Part shown: piece by piece, positions 25,277-27,011 of the stretch
Position numbering within the stretch: position 1 is the first letter of the stretch
Layout: every line of letters starts with the position of its first letter
Assembly (NCBI RefSeq): GCF_007004725.1
Contig: NZ_ML660161.1
Location: 297,122 to 361,121, forward strand
Reading direction: 5' to 3'
Source: Aliikangiella coralliicola
Lineage (GTDB): Bacteria > Pseudomonadota > Gammaproteobacteria > Enterobacterales > Kangiellaceae
Length of the DNA: 64,000 nt
Made by a program: the position numbers and the translations under genes
Notes under the pieces: model-generated
The model's input: only the letters and a program-made list of their open reading frames with translations
Told to the model about the DNA's origin: nothing
The model's database searches: none

Positions 25277-26365
25277 ATGCGAGCCGATACTGCTGATTAT
25301 CGAGAAATATTTCTTTCCGGCGCGCCTTTGATTGATTTGAGAGCGCCGTGTGAATTTTTGCAGGGCTCTTTTAGGGGAGCGGTTAATTTACCGCTGATGA
25401 GTGATGAAGAAAGAAGCCAGGTGGGAACCTGCTATAAACAAAATGGTCAGCAAGCTGCGATTGAGCTGGGTCATCAATTAGTTAGTGGGGAAGTTCGGCA
25501 AACCCGAATTGAAGCTTGGCGAAAATTTGCAGAACAAAATTCGAGAAATGGATACATGTTCTGTTTTCGAGGCGGTTTAAGATCTCAAACCGTGCAGGCC
25601 TGGCTGGCGCAAGCGCAGGTGGATTTGCCCCTGATTAAAGGTGGATATAAAGCGATGCGTCGATTTTTAATCGATGAAACGGTCAGATTTTCTCAGCAGA
25701 TGTCTTTTTATTTATTGTCGGGATTAACTGGATCAGCTAAAACCACTTTAATTGAAACCTTGACTAATTCAGTTAATCTCGAGGCGTTAGCGAATCATCG
25801 TGGTTCAAGTTTCGGAAAACAGCTCACACCTCAGCCAACTCAGATTGATTTTGAAAATGAACTGGCGATTCAACTGTTAAAACTTGAACAAGGCGCATTG
25901 TCACCGGTTATTTTAGAAGATGAGTCAAGACTTATTGGATCGCGCTCAATTCCCATCGAGCTACATCAGGCAATGGGTAAAGCGCCCATTGTTATCTTGC
26001 AGGAGTCACTAGACAAGCGCGTTGACAATATTCTCAATGAGTATGTCATTGATATGTATCACGGTTTTTGCGAGCTGCCGGAAGTTGACCCGGTGGAGGC
26101 TTTCAAAGGCTATTTGCTAGGCGCTATCGACAAAATTCGCAAACGGCTGGGTGGGGAACTCTATGGGCAATTGCAAACGACAATTTTGAAGGCGATCGAT
26201 TATCAACAATCTCGGCAGCGTTTTGATATTCATTGTGATTGGATCCGGCCTCTATTAGATAACTACTATGATCCTATGTATCGTTATCAGTTGAGTAAAA
26301 AGCGAGAGAGAATTGTATTTCAGGGAAAAGGCGATCAGGTAAAGGAATTTATCGAATCCCTCTAA
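25277..26365 (+). CDS. selU: tRNA 2-selenouridine synthase
   Basis: SelU (MnmH, YbbB) replaces sulfur by selenium at the wobble 2-thiouridine of certain tRNAs, in two steps via a geranylated intermediate. The 362-residue protein has an N-terminal rhodanese domain with the catalytic Cys96 in FCFRGGLRSQ and a P-loop domain with GLTGSAKTT (149-157), followed by LEDESRLIGSRSIP. Length fits the family. It forms a two-gene unit with selD. The start ATG 25277 follows GGAACCGGG. Downstream lies a 640-base gap containing hairpins and an RNA candidate. Confidence 0.95.
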   Translation: MRADTADYREIFLSGAPLIDLRAPCEFLQGSFRGAVNLPLMSDEERSQVGTCYKQNGQQAAIELGHQLVSGEVRQTRIEAWRKFAEQNSRNGYMFCFRGGLRSQTVQAWLAQAQVDLPLIKGGYKAMRRFLIDETVRFSQQMSFYLLSGLTGSAKTTLIETLTNSVNLEALANHRGSSFGKQLTPQPTQIDFENELAIQLLKLEQGALSPVILEDESRLIGSRSIPIELHQAMGKAPIVILQESLDKRVDNILNEYVIDMYHGFCELPEVDPVEAFKGYLLGAIDKIRKRLGGELYGQLQTTILKAIDYQQSRQRFDIHCDWIRPLLDNYYDPMYRYQLSKKRERIVFQGKGDQVKEFIESL

Positions 26366-26445
26366 TGTGCTTTTGTCGAGTCCCAAATAGTCGGTTATAT
26401 CGATTTTTATCCTAATTAGAGATTTTTGATTGTGCTTTTTATCTC

Positions 26446-26519
26446 TGTAGGAGAATTTTGATTGAGTTTTATCCCATTTTCCAAAACTCAGGTTTATTTC
26501 TTGTGCGACATCTCCTACA
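26446..26519. repeat. Nested inverted repeats downstream of selU
   Basis: The outer arms TGTAGGAGA (26446-26454) and TCTCCTACA (26511-26519) are perfect. Inside them TGAGTTTT (26463-26470) and AAAACTCA (26483-26490) form a second perfect pair. Together they make a two-storey stem of about 74 bases. It could be a small mobile repeat or a transcript-end structure. Confidence 0.5.
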
Positions 26520-26656
26520 TACTTTGTGAGTAATATCTGCCTTCTTCCGCGGTAATTGTCACTTCGTTATCGGAGATATTTACTGAAGGTATTTAGTTCA
26601 TTTTCTAAGGTAATGATTTTGTTAAATTTTATTTCAGGGCGAAATATAGTGAGACA

Positions 26657-26873
26657 AAAAGGGTAAAAAAAGTTGGTAAATACCGGCTTGTCAAAAGTTC
26701 TAATGAGCGTAATCTATCAATCAAGCGTTACGGATGACGTCGGAATAGAAGGATTAACGGGACAGGATCCTCGTATCAAGGAGTAGATTATCAAGGACGT
26801 AGCAGGGAGCAATTCTTTCATTGGATGAGAGAAAAAGCATATGAGGGCGACTTCGGTCGCCCTCTTCTGTTTT
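26657..26873 (+). ncRNA. Candidate Csr/Rsm-type regulatory RNA (sponge for CsrA/RsmA)
   Basis: A non-coding stretch with nine GGA triplets in about 95 bases (26732, 26742, 26751, 26760, 26765, 26780, 26795, 26806, 26823), several as AGGA or GGGA in short hairpin loops or single strands, for example around the palindromes GACGTC and AGGATCCT. It ends in a very strong intrinsic terminator (26843-26873). This is the design of CsrB, RsmY and RsmZ RNAs, which titrate the CsrA translational repressor. No reading frame runs through it. The 5' end is uncertain: it assumes a TATAGT box at 26645-26650. I did not find a clear GacA/UvrY box. A covariance search with CsrB/RsmY/RsmZ models would decide. 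Confidence 0.7.
26843..26873 (+). terminator. Strong intrinsic terminator of the RNA candidate
   Basis: GAGGGCGAC (26843-26851) and GTCGCCCTC (26856-26864) form a perfect 9-pair stem closed by a stable TTCG loop, followed by TTCTGTTTT. It faces plus-strand transcripts arriving from the GGA-rich region. Confidence 0.93.
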
Positions 26874-27011
26874 GCAGCCAAATCCAACTTTCCACCAAGT
26901 TGTCTTGTATCAAATAAGTATTAATTTACCGCCTTTCCTCTTCGTAAAACCATCGATTTATTTTTAAGTTTTGGGTTAAAATAACGCCAATTTAACAATC
27001 TCGGTGTGACA

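Follow-up and report, generated by a model that had tools for sequence, protein, structure and literature searches.

The 640-base gap at 26365 to 27006 of the window (the whole 64,000-nucleotide stretch of Aliikangiella coralliicola DNA analysed here) very probably carries a csrB/rsmZ-type gene, whose RNA is a candidate for sequestering CsrA. This reading, already put forward in a preliminary description of the sequence, is supported because the conserved GGAs, the loop hairpins with compensatory changes, the csrB-type upstream layout of UvrY, IHF and promoter sites, the partner genes csrA, uvrY and barA, and the place reported by the Rfam CsrB model all agree. As such, it would be a new member of a well-known regulator class, ordinary in kind. 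The coordinates of its features are given in Table 1.

Table 1. Features of the candidate small RNA locus, in window coordinates; negative positions are relative to the conserved RNA start.
Feature	Positions	Strand	Remarks
UvrY/GacA-type palindrome TGTGCGACATCTCCTACA (candidate site)	26502..26519	+	-221; 15/18 to E. coli csrB repeat
Second TGTGAG half-site, 5 bp beyond the palindrome	26525..26542	+	-198
IHF-like site TAAGGTAATGATT	26606..26618	+	-117; 8/9 letters of YAANNNNTTGATW
Putative promoter: -35 TTGTCA (26688-26693), 16 bp, -10 TAATCT (26710-26715)	26688..26715	+	conserved hexamers in alignments
Candidate Csr/Rsm-type small RNA, ~150 nt, 9 GGA	26723..26872	+	alignment A1, 11 sequences
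First hairpin, loop ACGGAT	26725..26740	+	5 pairs, 90.9% of cells paired, 2 pairs changed on both sides
Last GGA hairpin, loop TTGGA	26813..26833	+	stem of 5 to 8 pairs in 11/11 sequences
Intrinsic terminator: 9-pair stem, TTCG loop, T-rich tail	26843..26874	+	stem conserved with compensatory changes

The gap has the length first described, and separates a 362-aa frame ending at 26365, which we take to be mnmH-like and preceded by a selD-like frame, from a frame starting at 27006 that is presumably a carbonic anhydrase gene, a name taken from the preliminary description and from general knowledge. Nine GGA triplets, announced as lying within 95 bases, were indeed found on the plus strand, with starts between 26732 and 26823 and a span of 94 bases. 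This is the densest 95-base GGA stretch of the window on both strands, the next separate cluster (seven GGA, from 47697) being located within a 288-aa frame. When the gap was shuffled 2000 times with dinucleotides kept, nine GGA were never reached and the maximum averaged 3.4. The stem with TTCG loop and T-tract is equally present: seven of the nine pairs at 26843-26864 are G-C, and the tail, TTCTGTTTTG, is a modest T-tract. As for the RNA start, first placed at 26657, this proved to be about 65 bases too early. The conserved RNA begins near 26723, a start deduced from conservation and from the promoter; all upstream positions are counted from this conserved start, not from a mapped transcription start.

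A 321-base query matched 12 of the 99 genomes searched, namely the source genome itself, nine relatives and two others (G062 and G083), the latter dropped as chance matches of 20-25 bases. Most of the short matches in a further search were confined to the terminator end of the query (approximately positions 270-321) and were left uncounted. The DNA homologues, with 72-79% identity, were found in five of six genomes of the same genus and in four of six of a second genus. Alignment A1 consists of 11 sequences from 10 genomes, since G018 contributes two tandem copies, and its mean column identity is 77%. Most GGAs are invariant and the GGAs are the most conserved columns, each sequence having 8 to 10 of them, so that the conservation in related genomes on which the original reading was made to depend is observed. 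In G018 (contig C280, L005 and L014), the downstream copy lacks a good palindrome near -220.

The covariance model R1, built from this RNA alignment, matches all six genomes of the same genus. Five of these were used in building it, and G002 is the sole independent find within the genus (87 bits, E 5.5e-19). At E 0.1 or less, R1 found matches in 37 of 39 Kangiellaceae relatives, of which nine contributed to the model, and elsewhere in the order in 30 of 59 genomes. The weaker matches are not all alike. Among 36 loci outside the core set that were tested upstream (19 of 20 from the R1 genome search and 17 from another search), a palindrome like the E. coli repeat, equalled by at most 1% of shuffles, is present in 15 and absent in 21; several of the latter (L195 to L198) have just 1 to 4 GGA per 150 bases and were probably hit by chance. 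For the short loci L034 and L078 the match start was guessed, and L078 was omitted from this palindrome test. In another family of the order, R1 candidates L070 (G052) and L065 (G095) have palindromes of 17/18 and 14/18 as well as IHF-like sites, L070 showing no overlap with the RF00018 match of the same genome. The small-genome relatives of genus g5, probably Kangiella (L027, L028, L031 and L033), possess another GGA-rich stretch, which has 9-10 GGA per 150 bases and is weakly matched by the CsrB model (25.7 to 35.6 bits); that of L028 is located between glutaminase-like and RNA methyltransferase-like frames.

Folded alone, the 150-nt RNA is more stable than its shuffles (z -3.05; 2/200 as good). 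The consensus structure comprises five GGA-loop hairpins and the terminator, and was drawn from the alignment itself, a choice that favours it; 93.4% of its cells are paired (terminator included) vs. 35.5-50.2% with the 3' partners slid. Changes on both sides occur in seven pairs, a number reached by 3/500 shuffles; additional pair types are no more numerous than in shuffles (123/500 have as many). Two of the five GGA hairpins are invariant in the counted pairs and thus uninformative on covariation either way. The placing of GGAs in loops, proposed as a check by folding, is therefore seen in the alignment consensus but only in part in the window RNA alone, whose minimum-energy 5' half departs from the consensus, with the first consensus hairpins missing and some GGAs paired. 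The 8 to 10 conserved GGAs and five GGA-loop hairpins are what the functional class would show, with many conserved GGAs and several in hairpin loops.

At the upstream level, the 18-letter E. coli csrB repeat TGTGAGAGATCTCTTACA, which is centred at -183/-182 and constitutes the UvrY site, with a partial repeat 5 bp downstream of it (available part of PMC4682653), was scored on 11 loci, the downstream tandem copy of G018 being omitted. In the window, none of 500 shuffles equalled the palindrome. The best match lies at -220 to -223 in 8 of the 11 loci, the window included, with 14-16 of 18 letters and 0/500 shuffles as good in each case. L009 and L060 have 14/18 at -200 and -196 (0.2% and 0.6% of shuffles), and L008 has a weak 12/18 at -199 (6.2% of shuffles). 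The shorter published UvrY consensus beats 99% of shuffles in only three of the 11 loci, the window, with 9/12 equalled by 13% of shuffles, not being among them. A candidate UvrY/GacA site is thus recognised in the window with the E. coli repeat, the shorter consensus alone being not significant. Further 5' of the palindrome, at 26447-26455, another TGTAGGAGA resembles the partial repeat described for E. coli csrB in the same part of that source.

IHF-like sites were scored by raw letter count against YAANNNNTTGATW, which we take to be the IHF consensus. The best match is at -116 to -118 in all 11 loci, with 8 or 9 of 9 letters and, in L003, one tie elsewhere in the locus. The putative promoter has conserved hexamers (TTG and TATTCT/TAATCT-like); a consensus promoter scan does not list it at 26688-26715.

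The genes of the presumed partners were also found. The source genome possesses two copies of csrA, a gene present in 39 of the 40 genomes searched; the second copy (contig C1 of the source genome, 121964-122119) is more divergent, with 75.4 bits vs. 89.1 for the first. The UvrY orthologue is 62% identical over residues 1-215, no other near-full-length match exceeding 31%, and is followed by a frame that we take to be uvrC-like, an arrangement as in E. coli. The BarA orthologue has 37% identity over residues 2-912. Both CsrA and the BarA/UvrY system of the functional class are thus present.

No match was found at gathering scores with Rfam over the whole window. Of the covariance searches proposed for CsrB, RsmY and RsmZ, that with CsrB (RF00018) does hit the gap, but with 23.3 bits (E 1.8e-4) vs. 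a curated cut-off of 71 bits; the RNA is therefore not a CsrB by Rfam's rule, and by its anatomy it would work like one. The RsmY, RsmZ and CsrC models gave nothing at gathering scores, and none of them is among the gap matches listed at E 10 or less, a list that lacks one overlapping match, of lower score, to a related family. Over the whole 7.04-Mb genome, searched with stricter filters as for over 40 genomes, this locus is the only place reported by the CsrB model (E 4.5e-4). In the search of the gap, AAGGACGTAGCAGGGAGCA of the window aligns to the 3' portion of the CsrB consensus.

The relation to CsrB was also seen from the other side. In the 24 genomes of other families to which both models were applied, 9 of the 22 R1 matches overlap an RF00018 match, three more are within 600 bases of one and 10 are nowhere near; chance overlap is negligible because the RF00018 matches total only 10,791 bases. 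R1 was also run on 13 RF00018 loci of other families: 10 were matched with E values no higher than 1e-3, at the 3' end of the RF00018 hit, and L017, L018 and L030 reached only E 0.05-0.2. E. coli csrB (L081) gave no R1 match up to E 0.5. It is likely, though not proven, that the 3' module shares its descent with the CsrB RNAs.

Compared with E. coli csrB, the locus has in common a GGA-rich RNA ending in a terminator, the 3' AGCAGGGAGCA region of CsrB (RF00018), and, upstream, both the palindrome, followed after 5 bp by a partial repeat, and the IHF site. It differs in length, the E. coli gene being annotated as 369 nt vs. approximately 150 nt with 9 GGA here, and in that the palindrome starts at -221 when the E. 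coli repeat is centred at -183/-182. RsmY and RsmZ of Pseudomonas are short RNAs, and the candidate resembles them in size and GGA number, although neither is among the Rfam matches listed at E 10 or less. According to the available part of PMC4950607, RsmW and RsmY have seven GGA, and rsmZ has a GacA site at -196, with IHF sites in P. protegens, a further likeness. Pf1 sRNA of Pseudoalteromonas fuliginea, compared by description only, is likewise a Csr RNA that is specific to its lineage and resembles E. coli CsrB little, and it binds CsrA; unlike the present candidate, it has about 21 GGA and its matches are restricted to Pseudoalteromonas (available part of PMC9927453).

In the open-licence PMC full text, no paper pairing Kangiella with CsrB was found, and the sole match for Kangiella, sRNA and CsrA concerns Legionella in the portion available. 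The matches listed for Kangiellaceae, small RNA and Rsm do not mention Kangiellaceae, and those listed for Aliikangiella include no title on small RNAs. A machine-learning prediction of RsmA-binding RNAs (PMC5568370) does not name Kangiella in the available part of its main text.

Two other readings of the plus strand were considered. A leader of the carbonic anhydrase gene (5' UTR or attenuator, with the stem as switch) would account for that gene following on the same strand in the window and in four named loci with an R1 match. These four (L107, L108, L110 and L111) are, however, the only ones matched among 80 named carbonic anhydrase loci, the other 76 giving none; three of them are already in the model (L003, L006 and L007) and the fourth is G002. 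The candidate RNA also has its own putative promoter and terminator. A leader is very unlikely because the RNA occurs without that gene downstream in all four genomes of the second genus that have it, two of which have it pointing at the 3' end of a priA-like frame and two at other frames.

A small RNA of another kind (e.g. base-pairing and Hfq-dependent), with incidental GGAs, is similarly improbable. CsrA binding is a prediction, and weak matches to PhrS, sraA and MicX could be taken to favour such an RNA; those matches, which were rejected, rest largely on the terminator stem, and the GGAs, far from being incidental, are the most conserved columns behind a promoter of csrB layout. A small protein encoded on the opposite strand has the slimmest chance, unlikely but not absurd: the statement that no reading frame crosses the region holds for plus-strand frames of at least 50 aa but not for a 56-aa TTG frame on the minus strand (26717-26887), antisense to the RNA, and a stop-free minus frame exists in 6 of the 11 aligned sequences vs. 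231/1000 shuffles of the window RNA, yet the other five have stops in every minus frame, indels shift the phase so that, in the other 10 sequences, only 20 to 109 columns keep to the minus frame of the window, and promoter and terminator point the opposite way.

Returning to the Csr-type RNA, the palindrome pattern TGTRNGNNNTNTCNYACA was found at four places in the genome, a reversed control pattern giving one match. Two of these places (L048 and L050) were dropped, having at most four GGA in 120 bases downstream. L049 yielded a second RNA candidate rich in GGA on the minus strand (1028-1319 of the locus, contig C7 at about 254610-254901); it measures 292 nt, has 17 GGA and a terminator, and its start was chosen by eye. 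Its palindrome (16/18 at -199), IHF-like site (9/9 at -117) and promoter have the same layout as those of the window RNA, and R1 matches its 3' part with 29.2 bits; the Rfam CsrB model has no acceptable match there. The adjoining 373-aa frame is presumably an ATP-NAD kinase gene. Stretches with 17 to 25 GGA per 300 bases, and a best palindrome of 15 to 18 of 18 anywhere in the locus, were also found in G001, G003, G004, G005, G006 and G018. The palindrome at the long GGA-rich stretch of G006 is identical to that of E. coli; one short locus of that genome (L199) does not extend to the palindrome. In the source genome, the window RNA appears to act alongside the longer RNA of its own type at L049.

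In the mechanism that we propose, BarA (GacS) would phosphorylate UvrY (GacA), which would bind the palindrome at -221, and IHF would bend the DNA at -117, bringing UvrY to a sigma-70 promoter. An RNA of approximately 150 nt would then be transcribed, ending at the TTCG terminator, and its GGA hairpins would bind several CsrA dimers, freeing the mRNA targets of CsrA. Somewhat more tentatively, the short Csr RNAs of the Kangiellaceae may form a distinct family, descended from an ancestral CsrB through its 3' module, which comprises the AGCAGGGAGCA region and the terminator, with the csrB-type UvrY-IHF promoter kept and a longer paralogue coexisting.

The divergence of Csr RNAs is so rapid that many escape curated models. 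If descent from the CsrB 3' module were true, many apparently lineage-specific Csr RNAs would have diverged from a single gene and would not be inventions. The present alignment forms a bridge to CsrB RNAs from other families. The constant arrangement of the promoter elements is useful for searching, the palindrome pattern having led to a second RNA unreported by the Rfam CsrB model. For the Kangiellaceae, the locus provides a concrete candidate circuit of BarA, UvrY, Csr RNA and CsrA.
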